Shown in pieces: positions 53,996 through 63,811 of a stretch of DNA of 64,000 bases (position 1 is its first letter; each line of letters opens with the position of its first letter). This stretch comes from Pseudomonadota bacterium (GTDB taxonomy: Bacteria; Pseudomonadota; Gammaproteobacteria; Xanthomonadales; SZUA-38): NCBI GenBank assembly GCA_039033415.1, contig JBCCCR010000033.1, positions 1 through 64,000 on the forward strand, read 5' to 3'. The notes under the pieces were generated by a model that searched no databases, was not told where the DNA came from, and worked only from the letters and a program-made list of their open reading frames with translations. A program made the position numbers and the translations under genes.

Positions 53996-54457
53996 ATGCT
54001 TCGTATTAGCAAATTGACCGATTACGCGATTGTGGTTACCGCCGCAATGGCCGGCGATCCGGAGCGCATCTTCAGCGCCGCGGAGCTGGCTTCGGAAACC
54101 CATCTTGAGCCACCCACGGTGGCGAAAGTGCTCAAAACACTGACCCGCAGCGATCTGGTCCAGTCTTTTCGCGGCGCCGCCGGTGGCTACCGGCTCGCTC
54201 GGTCACCGGCCGAAATCACGGTTGCGCAGCTGATCGTCGCGATGGAAGGACCCATCGGTATGACGCAGTGCAGCGTGCATCAGGGCCTGTGTTCGACCGA
54301 GGCGGTTTGCGCCCTTCGCGGACACTGGCAGCAAATTTCGCGCGCCGTACACGACGCGCTGAGTGAAATGACGCTGCTCGACATGACGCGCCCATCGATG
54401 GCGCAGCAACTGGTGCCAGAGCTCAATCTCCACAACCCAACCACGGAATCCCCCTGA
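53996..54457 (+). CDS. Rrf2-family SUF system regulator
   Basis: 153 residues. Rrf2 winged helix at the N-terminus (MLRISKLTDYAIVVTAAMAG, AELASETHLEPPTVAKVLKTL, RGAAGGYRLARSP) and a cluster-binding cysteine group CSVHQGLCSTEAVC around residues 92-105. It resembles the gammaproteobacterial suf regulator rather than IscR proper. It should sense Fe-S status and control its own operon through the site at 53957-53981. sufB follows immediately after its stop. Confidence 0.92.
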   Translation: MLRISKLTDYAIVVTAAMAGDPERIFSAAELASETHLEPPTVAKVLKTLTRSDLVQSFRGAAGGYRLARSPAEITVAQLIVAMEGPIGMTQCSVHQGLCSTEAVCALRGHWQQISRAVHDALSEMTLLDMTRPSMAQQLVPELNLHNPTTESP

Positions 54458-55903
54458 ATGGCTACGGAAAATCAGCACATTAAGGACCTGGTCAAGCGCC
54501 GCTATGAGCCTGGTTTCTTCACGGATATTGAAAGTGACACGATTGCCCCGGGCCTGTCCGAGGACGTGGTGCGTTTCATTTCCGAGAAGAAGTCTGAGCC
54601 CGGCTGGATGACCGAGTGGCGTCTCAAGGCGTTCGCCTTGTGGCAGAACATGCCAACGCCGACCTGGGCACACGTGCACTATCCGGAAATCGACTTTCAG
54701 GCGATCTCCTATTATTCCGCGCCAAAGTCCGGCGCCAACTATGAGAGCTGGGATGAGGTTGATCCGAAGCTGATTGAAACTTACGACAAGCTCGGCGTCC
54801 CGCTGCACGAGCGGGCCCGCTTGGCCGGCGTGGCGGTGGACGCCGTTTTCGACTCGGTTTCTGTTGGAACCACGTTCCGCAAAGAGCTGGCCGAGGCCGG
54901 CGTGATTTTTTGTTCGATGTCCGAGGCTATCCAGGACCATCCGGAGCTTCTGCGAAAGTACCTTGGCAGCGTGGTACCGCAGGGCGACAACTTCTACGCG
55001 GCGCTGAACTCGGCGGTGTTTTCTGACGGATCGTTTGTGTTGATCCCCAAGGGCGTCCGCTGCCCGATGGAGCTCAGCACCTACTTCCGCATCAACGAGC
55101 TGAATACGGGCCAGTTTGAGCGAACGCTGATCGTTGCCGAGGAGGACAGTCACGTCAGCTATCTAGAAGGCTGCACGGCACCGATGCGCGATGAAAACCA
55201 GCTGCATGCGGCCGTGGTGGAGCTCGTGGCGCTGGATCGTGCGCAGATCAAATATTCGACGGTGCAGAATTGGTACCCCGGCGATGAGAACGGCAAGGGC
55301 GGGATTTACAACTTTGTGACCAAACGCGGCGACTGTCGCGGCGAGCGATCGAAGATCTCGTGGACACAGGTTGAAACCGGCTCAGCCGTCACGTGGAAGT
55401 ATCCCAGCTGCATCCTTCGAGGCGATCACTCGTCGGGGGAGTTTTACTCCGTGGCGCTGACGCACAATTATCAGCAGGCGGACACGGGCACCAAGATGGT
55501 GCATCTCGGCAAGAATACGCGCAGCCACATTATCTCGAAAGGCATTTCTGCGGGCCGCGGCCAGAACGCCTATCGAGGGCTGGTTCAGGTTAATCGGAAA
55601 GCCGACAACGCGCGCAACTTTACTCAGTGCGACTCGCTGCTGATCGGCGACCGCTGTGGCGCCCACACGTTTCCTTATATCGAAGCCAAGAACCCTACGG
55701 CCCAGCTAGAGCACGAGGCCAGCACGTCAAAAATCAGCGACGACCAGCTCTTTTACTGCCTCCAGCGTGGGATCAGCGAGGAAGACGCGGTGTCGATGAT
55801 CGTCGATGGGTTTTGCAAAGAGGTCTTTAAGGAGCTGCCCATGGAGTTTGCCGTCGAGGCGAAGAAACTGCTGGAAGTCAGCCTGGAAGGAGCGGTGGGA
55901 TGA
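54458..55903 (+). CDS. sufB: Fe-S cluster assembly protein SufB
   Basis: 481 residues, scaffold subunit of the SufBC2D complex. Family blocks: [77 protein letters not shown], and the C-terminal [16 protein letters not shown], whose Cys corresponds to the sulfur-receiving cysteine of E. coli Suf[21 protein letters not shown] contacts SufC. Starts directly after the regulator and overlaps sufC by 4 bp. Confidence 0.97.
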
Positions 55904-56664
55904 GTGACAACATACTGGAAATAACCGACCTCTACGCGAGTGTCGAGGGCAAACAAATCCTAAGAGGGCTCTCGCTGACGGTAAAGCCCGGCGAGGTTGC
56001 GGCCATTATGGGCCCCAACGGCGCCGGCAAAAGCACGTTGGCCAACGTTTTGGCCGGGCGTCCCGGCTACACGGTGGACAGCGGTTCGGTCTCATACCTG
56101 GGCGAAAACCTGCTCGAGCTGGAAACCGAAGAGCGCGCCTGTGCCGGCGTCTTTCTAGCCTTCCAATATCCCGTCGAAATTCCGGGTGTGAATAACACCT
56201 ATTTTCTGCGGGCGGCGCTCAACGCCCAGCGTCGTGCTCGCGGCGAGGAGGAACTGGACTCCATGGCCTTTCTGAAGCTCGTACGCGCGCGCCTCAAGGC
56301 GCTTCATATCACGGACGACCTGCTGCACCGCGCGGTTAACGAAGGCTTTTCTGGCGGTGAGAAAAAGCGGAACGAAGTGTTTCAGATGGCGGTGCTGGAG
56401 CCCCGGCTCGCGATCCTGGACGAGACCGATTCCGGCCTCGACATCGACGCACTGAAGATTGTCGCCGACGGCGTCAACGAGCTGCGCAGCAATGAGCGCG
56501 GCTTTGTTGTCGTGACTCACTATCAGCGCCTGCTGGATCACATCGTGCCCGACACGGTTCACGTGCTGATGGACGGCCGTATCGCCAAGTCGGGTTCGAG
56601 CGACCTTGCCCTGCGGCTTGAGAAAGAGGGCTACGCCTGGATTCAGGAGGAGCTCGCGGCGTGA
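55900..56664 (+). CDS. sufC: Fe-S cluster assembly ATPase SufC
   Basis: 254-residue soluble ABC ATPase of the SufBC2D complex. Walker [22 protein letters not shown]-loop [17 protein letters not shown], the SufC-type signature [19 protein letters not shown], Walker [18 protein letters not shown], switch His in [10 protein letters not shown]. Its ATP-driven motion opens the SufB-SufD interface for cluster building. 4-bp overlaps with sufB and sufD. Confidence 0.97.
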
Positions 56665-57980
56665 GCCTCGTCGATTCGTTACTGAGCACGGCACCGGAGA
56701 CGTCCGCGGGCTGGTGGCAGCAATCTCGCGACGCCCATCGGGCCATCGTCGATCAACACGGGCTGCCCGATCGTCGCCAGGAGAACTGGAAGTACACGGC
56801 GCTGCGATCGCTCGAAGGTCATCAGTTTCAGCCGGTGGAGCCTGGACTGCTGCAGCCTGAGGATCTGGCGCAGCTGCTCGAAACCCATCGGGTACCGCCG
56901 CTAGCAGGTAGTCGGATGACGTTCGTGAACGGCCACTTCGCGGCATCGCTATCGCATGTCGATGAAGTGGTCGGGTTAAGGGTTAGCGCGCTGAGTCTGC
57001 TTGGCGAGGCCGTGCCGAGCACCGCGTCGGCGGCCCTTGGGGCTGAGTATTCTCGGCCAGACGAGGGTTTCGCTGCGCTGAATACGCTGCTCGCCTCGGA
57101 CGGCGTGCTGCTGGAGCTGGCTGGGGGCGATGAGCCCGAGAGCCAGCAGGAAGCCGATGCGCCGGTGGTTGAACTGCTTTTTGTGGACGTGCCGGGCGCC
57201 GCTCCCGCAGCGCCAACCGTCAGGAACGTAATCAAGATTGGTGCCGGTGCATCGCTTGCGCTGGTTGAGCGTTATGTCAGCGCGGGTGATGGCGTGGCGC
57301 TCATCAATAGCCTCAGTCAGGTTGAGCTGGGCGCCAACAGCCGTCTGAGCCACGTGAGGCTTCCGCTGCTGGGTGAGGCGCGGTCGCTCATCTCTCGGCT
57401 GGACGTGCGTCTGGGTGAAGCCAGCGACTACCGATGCTACGGCCTCGACCTCAGTGGCACACTGGTTCGGCACGATCTCAATGTGGCGCTGGTCGGGGAG
57501 GGCGCCCAGGCGTCGCTCAACGGTGTTTATGCGCCGCGAGGTCAAACGCATATCGACAATCACGTGGCGGTAGATCACCGGGTTCGTGATGCGATCAGTA
57601 GCCAGACGTTCAAGGGCGTCTTGAGCGATCGCAGCCGAGGGGTTTTTAACGGCAAGGTGGCTGTCCAGGAAGGCGCCGACGGAACCGATGCCAGTCAATC
57701 CAACGCCAATCTGCTGCTCTCAGCGGATGCTGAGATCGACACCAAACCCGAGCTGGAAATCTACGCGGACGATGTGAAATGTGCACACGGCACCACGGTC
57801 GGTGCGCTGTCAGGTGATCAGCTTTTTTATCTCACCGCGCGCGGCATTCCGGAATCGGAGGCCCGCCGCATGCTGACCATCGGGTTTTGTCGAGAGGTGC
57901 TGGAAGGAATCCCGGTTGAAACCATCCGGGATCACGCCATATCGTTGCTCACAGATCATTTGCAGGACATCGACGCATGA
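56661..57980 (+). CDS. sufD: Fe-S cluster assembly protein SufD
   Basis: 439 residues, paralogue of SufB and partner in SufBC2D. N-terminal GLPDRRQENWKYTALRSLEG; the beta-helix core includes LSGTLVRHDLNVALVGEGA and SSQTFKGVLSDRSRGVFNG; ADDVKCAHGTTVGALSGDQL carries the His corresponding to the functional histidine of E. coli SufD; the C-terminus has ARGIPESEARRMLTIGF. GTG 56661 overlaps sufC by 4 bp. Confidence 0.96.
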   Translation: MSLVDSLLSTAPETSAGWWQQSRDAHRAIVDQHGLPDRRQENWKYTALRSLEGHQFQPVEPGLLQPEDLAQLLETHRVPPLAGSRMTFVNGHFAASLSHVDEVVGLRVSALSLLGEAVPSTASAALGAEYSRPDEGFAALNTLLASDGVLLELAGGDEPESQQEADAPVVELLFVDVPGAAPAAPTVRNVIKIGAGASLALVERYVSAGDGVALINSLSQVELGANSRLSHVRLPLLGEARSLISRLDVRLGEASDYRCYGLDLSGTLVRHDLNVALVGEGAQASLNGVYAPRGQTHIDNHVAVDHRVRDAISSQTFKGVLSDRSRGVFNGKVAVQEGADGTDASQSNANLLLSADAEIDTKPELEIYADDVKCAHGTTVGALSGDQLFYLTARGIPESEARRMLTIGFCREVLEGIPVETIRDHAISLLTDHLQDIDA

Positions 57981-59227
57981 GTGCAGTTATTGCCGCAGAC
58001 AACCATTCGCCGCTGAACGTGGAGGAAGTTCGCAAAGACTTCCCCATACTCTCTCGAGAAATACATGGTAAGCCGCTGATTTATTTCGATAATGCGGCTT
58101 CAGCACAGCGGCCGTCGGCGATGATCGACGCCACTCAGGATTTCTACAGCCGGCACAACGCCAACATTCACCGGGGCGTGCACACGCTGGCCGAAGAGGC
58201 CACCGCGCTCTACGAACAGGCGCGCGAGACCCTGGCCCGCTTCATCAATGCTCCCAGCGACCGCAACGTGGTGTTTGTGCGAGGCGTGACCGAAGGCGTC
58301 AACCTGGTGAGCCAGGCGTTCGTGCGGCCGAGGCTCAAACCCGGCGACCAGATCCTGGTGAGTCACCTGGAACACCACTCCAACATCGTTCCCTGGCAGC
58401 TGCTGGCGAAGCAGACTGGCGTTGAGCTCAAGGTGATTCCCATGACCCACGCTGGCGAGCTCGACATGGACGCCTTCCACGCCATGCTGAGCGAGCGAGT
58501 CAAGCTGCTCGGCGTTGTCCATGTGTCCAACGCCCTTGGGACGATCAACCCGGTGGCCGACATGGTCAAGGCGGCACGCGAGTTCGATATCCCGGTGCTG
58601 GTCGATGGCGCCCAGGCGACGCCGCACATGGCGGTTGACGTCCAGGCACTCGACTGCGACTTTTATTGTGTCTCTGGCCACAAAATGTACGGCCCGACCG
58701 GCGCCGGCATTCTGTACGGCAAGAGCCGCTGGCTCGAGCAGATGGAGCCTTACCACGGCGGCGGCGAGATGATTAAGCACGTCACGTTCGAGGAGAGCGT
58801 GTTTAACGAACCGCCCGCCAAATTTGAGGCCGGCACGCCCAACATTGCAGGCGGCATCGGTCTGGGTGCGTCCGCTCAATACCTGCTGGACGTGGGGCTG
58901 GATCGGATTCGCGACTACGAGGCCGGACTGCTGGCCTACGCCACCGAGGCGGTGCAGCAGGTGGAAGGCTTACGGATTATCGGGACCGCCCGCGACAAGG
59001 CGAGCGTGATTTCGTTTACGCTCGAAGGCATTCACCCGCACGATCTCGGCACGATCCTCGATCACTCGGGGGTGGCAATCCGCACCGGCCATCACTGCGC
59101 GATGCCGATCATGCAGTTTTTTGAGGTGCCCGCCACTTCCCGCATGTCGCTGGCCGTGTACAACACGCGTGACGAGGTGGATACGTTTGTTGCGGCGCTG
59201 AACAAAGCGAGAGATATTTTGTCCTGA
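57977..59227 (+). CDS. sufS: Cysteine desulfurase SufS
   Basis: 416 residues, PLP enzyme (group II desulfurase) that provides sulfur as a persulfide. IYFDNAASAQRPSAMIDATQ, the PLP lysine in VSGHKMYGPTGAGILYG, and the catalytic cysteine in RTGHHCAMPIMQFFEVP. These enzymes need SufE or SufU to accept the persulfide. No sufE lies here, and the adjacent SufU-like protein lacks its zinc site (59232-59675). Overlaps sufD by 4 bp. Confidence 0.97.
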   Translation: MSAVIAADNHSPLNVEEVRKDFPILSREIHGKPLIYFDNAASAQRPSAMIDATQDFYSRHNANIHRGVHTLAEEATALYEQARETLARFINAPSDRNVVFVRGVTEGVNLVSQAFVRPRLKPGDQILVSHLEHHSNIVPWQLLAKQTGVELKVIPMTHAGELDMDAFHAMLSERVKLLGVVHVSNALGTINPVADMVKAAREFDIPVLVDGAQATPHMAVDVQALDCDFYCVSGHKMYGPTGAGILYGKSRWLEQMEPYHGGGEMIKHVTFEESVFNEPPAKFEAGTPNIAGGIGLGASAQYLLDVGLDRIRDYEAGLLAYATEAVQQVEGLRIIGTARDKASVISFTLEGIHPHDLGTILDHSGVAIRTGHHCAMPIMQFFEVPATSRMSLAVYNTRDEVDTFVAALNKARDILS

Positions 59228-59231
59228 CGTT

Positions 59232-59675
59232 ATGTCGCTCCAGGATCTCTACCGCACGGCGGTCATTGAGCACAACAAGAACCCGCGCAATTTCCTTGAG
59301 CTCGACGACCCCAGTCACCAGTCGCGGGGTTTGAACGCCCTGTGTGGAGACGACATCCGTGTCTACCTCTTGGTGGACGACGGGCGAATCCGACACGCGA
59401 GTTTTCTCGGTCAGGCCAGCGCGATCACCATGGCTTCCGCCTCCATGATGACGGTGCGGATCGAACGGCTCACGGTCAGCGAGGCGCTGCAAACCTGCGA
59501 CCAGCTTGACCGATTACTTCAGGGTGAGCCTGACGGGGATCTGCGGGAGCAGCTCGGGGATCTCTGCGCGCTGGAAGGCGTGCGTCAGTATCCTTCGCGG
59601 ATCAAGGCGGCGCGATTGCCGTGGCAGGCCATGAAGGCTGCGTTGAACGAGCAGGCGATTGCCAGCACGGAGTAG
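59232..59675 (+). CDS. sufU: SufU-like sulfur acceptor lacking two zinc-ligand cysteines
   Basis: 147 residues. The whole SufU pattern is present (LYRTAVIEHNKNPRNFLEL, ITMASASMMT, CALEGVRQYPSRIK), but of the zinc site only Cys and Asp in NALCGDDIRVY remain. The family GxGCxI position reads GQASAIT (Ser) and RIKCAxL reads RIKAARLPW (Ala). In B. subtilis SufU the first Cys takes the persulfide from SufS and all three cysteines plus Asp hold zinc. This one could accept sulfur on its one aligned Cys, in the manner of SufE, but should not bind zinc normally. It starts 4 bp after sufS. No frameshift or stop, so not an obvious pseudogene. Confidence 0.88.
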   Translation: MSLQDLYRTAVIEHNKNPRNFLELDDPSHQSRGLNALCGDDIRVYLLVDDGRIRHASFLGQASAITMASASMMTVRIERLTVSEALQTCDQLDRLLQGEPDGDLREQLGDLCALEGVRQYPSRIKAARLPWQAMKAALNEQAIASTE

Positions 59676-63415: not shown

Positions 63416-63811
63416 ATGACGGATCATGAGTCCAGCTCAGGCACCTCTTTAGATTCTTCTTCACCCGACGCGCTCGAGCGCCAGGCCAACCAGTGGGGGA
63501 TGTTTATCCACTTCGGCATTCTGGCCGGCTTTGTTGTTCCGTTTGCTGGCCTGGTTGTGCCGATCGTCTTGTGGCAAATGAAAAAGGACGAACTGCCGCG
63601 CGTTGATGCCCACGGCAAGGTGGTGGTGAACTGGATGCTCAGCAGCCTGATTTACGGCCTGGTCTGCGGGGTGCTGACGCTGATTCTGATTGGCGCGCTC
63701 GGCTTCCTCGCGCTGGGAATCGCCACCGTGATCTTTGCCATCGTCGGGGGAATCAAAGCCAACGACGGGGAGATCTGGGAATACCCGGCCTCTATTCGTT
63801 TCCTGAAGTAA
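63416..63811 (+). CDS. DUF4870 (Tic20-like) membrane protein
   Basis: 131 residues. A polar Ser-rich N-terminus (1-25), then three to four membrane helices: HFGILAGFVVPFAGLVVPIV, MLSSLIYGLVCGVLTLILIG, and LGFLALGIATVIFAIVGGI, with the family block WQMKKDELPRVDAHGKVVVN between the first two. The ending EIWEYPASIRFLK is typical. Small inner-membrane protein of unknown role. AAGGAA precedes ATG 63416. Confidence 0.9.
   Translation: MTDHESSSGTSLDSSSPDALERQANQWGMFIHFGILAGFVVPFAGLVVPIVLWQMKKDELPRVDAHGKVVVNWMLSSLIYGLVCGVLTLILIGALGFLALGIATVIFAIVGGIKANDGEIWEYPASIRFLK

Follow-up and report, generated by a model that had tools for sequence, protein, structure and literature searches.

A SufU homologue with a broken zinc site, encoded behind sufS in a genome that also carries SufE, and its relatives in the Lysobacterales

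Zinc is reported to be essential for the action of SufU (PMC10216065), and for B. subtilis SufU a requirement for zinc binding has been reported (PMC6006206). The question raised by the locus described here is what a SufU does once two of its three zinc cysteines are gone. The window, meaning the whole stretch of 64,000 nucleotides that was analysed (contig JBCCCR010000033.1 of a Pseudomonadota bacterium), contains a cluster in the order regulator-sufB-sufC-sufD-sufS-sufU, with sufU as the final gene. A preliminary description, made from the DNA letters, had read this last gene as a SufU that keeps its first cysteine and its aspartate and has serine and alanine for the other two cysteines, and had suggested either a zinc-free, SufE-like sulfur transfer or a non-transferring regulator of SufS. 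The genes and residues concerned are these:

53996..54457, + strand: Rrf2 regulator of the SUF operon (TIGR02944); open reading frame and model match
54458..55903, + strand: sufB; open reading frame and model match
55900..56664, + strand: sufC; open reading frame and model match
56661..57980, + strand: sufD; open reading frame and model match
57977..59227, + strand: sufS, cysteine desulfurase; TIGR01979 at 577 bits against a cut-off of 475, and PDB alignments
59039..59041, + strand: SufS His355 in an HPHD motif, at the position of the zinc-swap histidine His342 of B. subtilis SufS; codons and PDB alignments
59096..59098, + strand: SufS catalytic Cys374; codons and PDB alignments
59232..59675, + strand: sufU homologue of 147 amino acids with a broken zinc site; ATG start, TIGR01994, NifU_N
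59343..59345, + strand: Cys38 (TGT), persulfide-acceptor position, B. subtilis SufU Cys41; codon reading and order alignment
59349..59351, + strand: Asp40 (GAC), kept zinc-ligand aspartate, B. subtilis SufU Asp43; codon reading and order alignment
59418..59420, + strand: Ser63 (AGC) at the second zinc-cysteine position, B. subtilis SufU Cys66; codon reading, PDB and order alignments
59598..59600, + strand: Arg123 (CGG), SufS-docking arginine, kept; codon reading, and contact Arg128 of the M. tuberculosis complex (PMC10216065)
59607..59609, + strand: Ala126 (GCG) at the third zinc-cysteine position, B. subtilis SufU Cys128; codon reading, PDB and order alignments

The zinc-swap role is the one reported for His342 of B. 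subtilis SufS (PMC11408855, PMC10216065). That the adjoining sufS has its catalytic cysteine, as had been described, is confirmed by the codons and PDB alignments for Cys374. Further along the window, 63416-63811 encodes a 131-aa protein, probably a membrane protein, with no NCBIfam match.

By descent the window protein is a SufU. It passes the SufU equivalog model TIGR01994 with 119.7 bits against a cut-off of 92.5, and the sole Pfam domain reported for it is NifU_N (61.6 bits, cut-off 22). The AlphaFold2 monomer model has a mean pLDDT of 93.6, and its best PDB matches are T. thermophilus 2qq4 (2qq4_F, TMq 0.87) and B. subtilis SufU 6jzv (6jzv_A, TMq 0.86). The hallmarks reported for SufU are an insertion of 18-21 residues between the second and third cysteines relative to IscU and a lysine replacing an IscU histidine (PMC6006206, PMC10216065), and the window protein has both; the two positions are residues 63 and 126, to be compared with Cys66 and Cys128 of the B. 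subtilis protein, and Lys125 stands immediately before the third. With the zinc-dependent SufU proteins of B. subtilis and M. tuberculosis (PDB ID: 5xt5, 6jzv, 8odq) it shares the fold, the TIGR01994 match, the acceptor cysteine and aspartate, the long spacing and the lysine, the tyrosine and arginine for docking, and the place of its gene next to sufS; it differs from them in the serine and alanine at two of the three zinc cysteines and in having a SufE in the same genome. An IscU-like scaffold was considered and rejected. IscU belongs to the same NifU_N superfamily, but the window protein scores far under the cut-offs of TIGR01999 (30.6 bits vs 192.4), TIGR03419 (52.7 vs 187.9) and TIGR02000 (25.4 vs 273.3), and the second and third conserved cysteines are not kept.

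The zinc set of the window protein reads Cys-Asp-Ser-Ala, with 2 of the 4 ligands of the full Cys-Asp-Cys-Cys set lost. Five PDB alignments, including the one to B. subtilis SufU 5xt5_D, place cysteines opposite Ser63 and Ala126, and together with the codons they bear out the preliminary reading of the site.

How far this loss extends can be asked of the order to which the genome belongs. The 398 genomes of the order (Lysobacterales) were searched, a NifU_N match was found in 144, and one SufU was typed from each. Ligand states are written below in the column order acceptor Cys, Asp, second Cys (C2) and third Cys (C3), and families are referred to by number, that of the window being f1. Ambiguous residues (X) were changed to A before the profile search; the alanine in three genomes (G000, G001, G002) and in the two f11 Gly/Ala rows holds without that step. 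Both C2 and C3 are missing in all four f1 genomes (CDSA 2, CDSS 1, CESA 1). A genome of the same genus has a Ser/Ala pair identical to that of the window at 88% identity, and the remaining two members have Ser/Ser and Ser/Ala with the aspartate changed to glutamate. The nearest named relative of the window SufU, 88% identical, lies on JANQOZ010000024.1 from the MAG Lysobacterales bacterium IP29b_bin.149, presumably the same-genus genome G001.

Broken sites are found in several other families: f6 (CDCS 2), f8 (CDCS 30, CSCS 1), f9 (CDCN 33, CDCC 5) and f11 (CDST 6, CDGA 2), as well as a few members of f7 (CDCC 28, CDCS 4, two incomplete). Families f12 (15), f4 (7), f2 (4) and f10 (1) are all CDCC. 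C3 is missing in 82 of the 144 proteins and C2 also in 12 of these 82, and no full row has lost C2 and kept C3 (the f7 fragment G539 alone reads Val, Cys there, and has no letters at the acceptor and Asp columns). The acceptor position is cysteine in 143 of 144, the 144th being G539, and is never replaced. The aspartate is changed in two rows of the order, one of which (G020, very divergent) keeps C2, and the arginine corresponding to Arg123 is present in every row of the groups compared except for one gap. Read as a sequence of events, these states indicate that within the order C3 goes first, and then C2 or, rarely, Asp. A poorly resolved tree made without the ligand columns needs 5 changes at C3 and 2 at C2; it was built from 122 of 174 rows after removal of those that were short or nearly identical, and the very long row G020 is counted as a change. 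Outside the order, the site is CDCC in 30 of 30 SufU of the class (best-scoring hits only) and in 20 of 20 phylum controls (chosen from 46 hits, E 2e-28 to 1e-23), which for all 50 is to be expected because they were picked as high scorers.

Sequencing error and recent decay are rejected as explanations by the family-wide pattern and by dN/dS. For sufU, window versus congener, dN/dS is 0.068 by NG86, with dS at 0.7-1.1 and so near saturation; the same comparison gives 0.032 for sufS, 0.107 for sufD, and 0.051 and 0.039 for two downstream genes. The preliminary description had named recent decay as the alternative should close relatives all keep the three cysteines; they do not, and decay is ruled out by the absence of both C2 and C3 from all four f1 genomes and the low dN/dS of sufU. 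The SufU/SufS rate ratio is about 2 in broken families (f1 2.04, f8 1.92, and f9, which includes a few intact rows, 2.05), and in intact or mostly intact families it is likewise 1.88 for f12, 1.64 for f4 and, for f7, which includes a few broken rows, 2.41. Zinc-site loss in f1 is thus family-wide and under purifying selection, with no sign of decay.

The next consideration is whether this SufU is the only protein available to take sulfur from SufS. A profile search of the window genome finds exactly one SufE, on contig C27 (PF02657, 156.6 bits). It is full-length (locus L002) and contains the motifs YGCQSQVW and PTRSNGL, which we take to be the catalytic motifs of SufE; on the NCBIfam SufE model NF006792 it scores 110 bits, under that model's cut-off of 160. 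The earlier statement that no sufE is nearby holds, as worded, for the locus and misses this gene elsewhere in the genome. No second NifU_N protein was found by profile search, which gives one match in the whole genome. For desulfurases there are 19 PF00266 matches, ten with loci, and SufS and eight others (L163-L170) were examined. None of L164-L170 reached a curated NCBIfam cut-off for a CsdA- or IscS-type desulfurase, and L163, judged from its sequence, is presumably SerC-like. SufS alone of the matches examined is a curated desulfurase of SufS/IscS/CsdA type, and for that reason the SufE most likely works with the window SufS. With both of these in the genome, a candidate carrier other than the SufU exists, and the premise that no canonical SufE or SufU elsewhere does the job falls. 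If the window SufU did converge on SufE, it did so in the company of a genuine SufE.

SufU and SufE reportedly tend to be found in different genomes (PMC6006206). In this order 383 of 398 genomes have SufE, as do 132 of the 144 SufU-bearing ones (74 with broken, 56 with intact and 2 with incomplete sites); the 12 SufU genomes with no SufE match comprise 8 broken and 4 intact. No NifU_N match is found in 254 of the 398, and 251 of these have SufE. Among 70 class genomes outside the order, taken from the top of 152 SufU over cut-off, SufE is found in only 2. Thirty of the 70 were typed, all of them CDCC and all without SufE, both SufE-bearing genomes being among the other 40, and none of the 20 phylum control genomes (CDCC) is among the SufE-positive genomes. 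What the 50 high-scoring controls show is the absence of SufE, their intact sites being partly by choice of sample. Counting also the 29 genomes from outside the class described below, SufE is present in 103 of 111 typed broken-site genomes (74 of 82 in the order and 29 of 29 outside the class), counts that are not independent because the clades are few. The presence of SufE does not by itself bring about the loss, as the site is intact in 56 genomes of the order that have SufE, and co-occurrence with SufE is best taken as a candidate cause of zinc-site loss in the order.

A second set of broken SufU-like proteins comes from the 40 genomes whose best NifU_N hit is weaker than 1e-11. All of these were taken, all 40 are SufE-positive, and they yielded 30 loci (L334-L363), 29 of which were typed. 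The sole weak-hit locus in the window's class (L351) gave no match on typing. The 29 typed proteins, all from outside the class, read Cys-Ser-Cys-Ser, with the acceptor cysteine, C2 and the arginine kept and with serine for Asp and C3. One of them matches Brucella abortus chain 5uft at 2e-60, which is why we consider the group probably alphaproteobacterial, and one example scores 80.6 bits on TIGR01994, under the cut-off of 92.5. These 5uft-type proteins resemble the window SufU in the kept acceptor cysteine and arginine, the broken zinc site and the SufE in the genome, and are unlike it in losing Asp and C3 and keeping C2. They appear to have lost the SufU zinc site separately, as a second such case, beside SufE in 29 of 29. 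Broken-site relatives are, as 5uft illustrates, already in the databases.

Whether the broken proteins still have the means to meet SufS is of interest. The contacts described as strictly conserved in the M. tuberculosis SufS-SufU complex are Tyr9, Cys40, Gly41 and Arg128 (PMC10216065), and in f1 they are kept as Tyr7, Cys38, Gly39 and Arg123; Tyr7, Gly39 and Arg123 are also kept in f8 and in broken f9. The further contact Ser68 is Ala64 in the window, as it is in 30 of 30 intact class SufU. Broken SufU adjoins sufS in 4 of 4 f1, 4 of 4 f7-CDCS, 19 of 31 f8, 22 of 33 f9-Asn and 1 of 8 f11 fetched loci. We also note, in counts that include loci ended by a contig boundary, that there is no sufS in the fetched locus for 28 of 28 intact f7 SufU (e.g. 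L131, L113, L025), 11 of 30 f8 CDCS (L091, L085) and 7 of 8 f11 (L101-L103).

The SufS side of the zinc hand-over can be compared for the 75 of 144 SufU with SufS in the same fetched locus. The zinc-swap histidine is kept in the adjacent SufS of f1 (His355 in the window), f6, f7-CDCS, f8 and the single f11 case. It shows no adapted interface in f1, because it is kept there and the SufS typed from SufU-less f2 genomes have it as well (6 of 6). In f9 the position is Asn in 20 of 22 SufS adjacent to CDCN proteins, and the histidine is kept in 4 of 4 next to CDCC, so that both halves of the hand-over seem to be mostly gone in f9 and the SufU half only in f1. The case for a coupled change in f9 is a weak one from a single clade: in the poorly resolved tree the intact f9 rows do not group as sister to the Asn clade, f7 genomes with intact, non-adjacent SufU have Asn at the SufS position in 6 of 14, and the 22 typed SufU-less genomes have His, Asn, Thr or Gln there. 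Separately, position 35 (window numbering) is Asp in 33 of 33 f9 proteins with C3 changed to Asn, and Asn in nearly all other groups; this replacement, three residues before the acceptor cysteine, may be a compensation within the acceptor loop.

Our reading is that a SufU by descent lost its zinc site while a SufE in the same cell supplied sulfur delivery, and that it may now serve as a second, zinc-free partner of SufS beside SufE, perhaps at a lower rate or under other conditions. We hold this to be evenly poised between right and wrong. The protein would fold without zinc, dock on SufS via Tyr7 and Arg123, and take persulfide directly on Cys38, as proposed because no zinc would hold the acceptor loop and none would need handing to SufS His355. 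That Cys38 is so strictly kept speaks for sulfur chemistry and against a role that is purely structural. Zinc-stripped M. tuberculosis SufU is reported to have about 10% of its activity left (PMC10216065), and from this and the B. subtilis zinc requirement, inactivity with SufS is the default expectation; that SufE could carry the whole sulfur load also counts against transfer by the window SufU. What it would share with SufE of the E. coli type is zinc-free transfer by one acceptor cysteine, though it is of a different Pfam family, with no PF02657 match reported. The SufE-like transfer proposed earlier accordingly survives in part: the broken site, the kept acceptor cysteine, the family-wide loss and the purifying selection agree with it, and the full-length SufE in the genome does not.

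In a rival reading the SufU is a non-transferring partner: SufE would do all the transfer and the zinc-less SufU would only bind SufS (or SufE, or SufBCD) and tune activity or protect the persulfide. A full-length SufE alongside a single curated desulfurase among the matches examined, the kept docking residues, and the dispensability of SufU in the order (254 genomes lack a NifU_N match and 251 of those have SufE) all agree with such a role. Binding alone needs no Cys38, yet this residue is never replaced in the order or in the 29 typed proteins outside the class, which favours zinc-free transfer over non-transferring regulation, and we consider the non-transferring partner unlikely. An altered zinc mechanism could survive if other residues (Ser, Asn, a neighbouring Cys, His or Glu) had taken over metal binding at the site, and in f8 and f9 a weak zinc site could be made of Cys38, Asp40 and Cys63 together with Asn or Ser. 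The candidates for replacement are Cys130 in f8 (30 of 31, one helical turn past C3), and position 89 (Cys, Cys, Cys and His) or Glu23 (4 of 4) in f1, and none is convincing: Cys130 likewise occurs in 9 of the 30 intact SufU of the class, and f1 and f11 have Pro at that position, no further cysteine is common to all four f1 members, the His14 and His29 shared in f1 occur commonly in the order's intact SufU too, and the window keeps only Cys38 and Asp40 of the known ligands. Retained metal is therefore quite improbable in our view. Least probable of all, by a little, is a redundant protein on its way out, replaced by SufE, with the zinc site eroded and the gene kept by lag. The 254 genomes with no NifU_N match and the near-universal SufE would suit it, and it sits poorly with the dN/dS of 0.068, evolution no faster than in intact families, family-wide fixation with an invariant Cys38, and a gene kept behind sufS in f1, f8 and f9.

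A broader and rather doubtful proposal extends this reading, namely that SufS has partners of a third kind, zinc-free SufU proteins that accept persulfide on a single conserved cysteine, work beside SufE on one SufS, and arose independently in the Lysobacterales and in a second, probably alphaproteobacterial, lineage. Were it true, such proteins would be surviving intermediate stages between persulfide transfer gated by zinc and transfer free of it. In the literature searched, mostly outside subscription journals, we found no description of a zinc-less SufU or of such a pattern. A 2026 preprint proposes SufE as a zinc-independent alternative to SufU (PMC12803347), and the proteins of this order would add to that proposal by showing SufU itself turning zinc-independent. 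The order departs both from zinc as essential for SufU and from SufU and SufE not co-occurring. It also offers natural variants in graded steps, from an intact site through loss of C3 and then of both C3 and C2 to the absence of SufU, and as Marinicella and Wenzhouxiangella include named isolates, the role of zinc in SufU becomes testable by comparison.

Three f11 genomes have a broken SufU and no SufE match: G030 (99% complete), G058 (77%) and G436 (86%). Their fetched SufU loci contain no sufS, and G429 (f11, 7% contaminated), a congener of G030 and G058, does have a SufE match. If the absence of SufE from the three is real, the zinc-less SufU would be their only candidate carrier of either kind.
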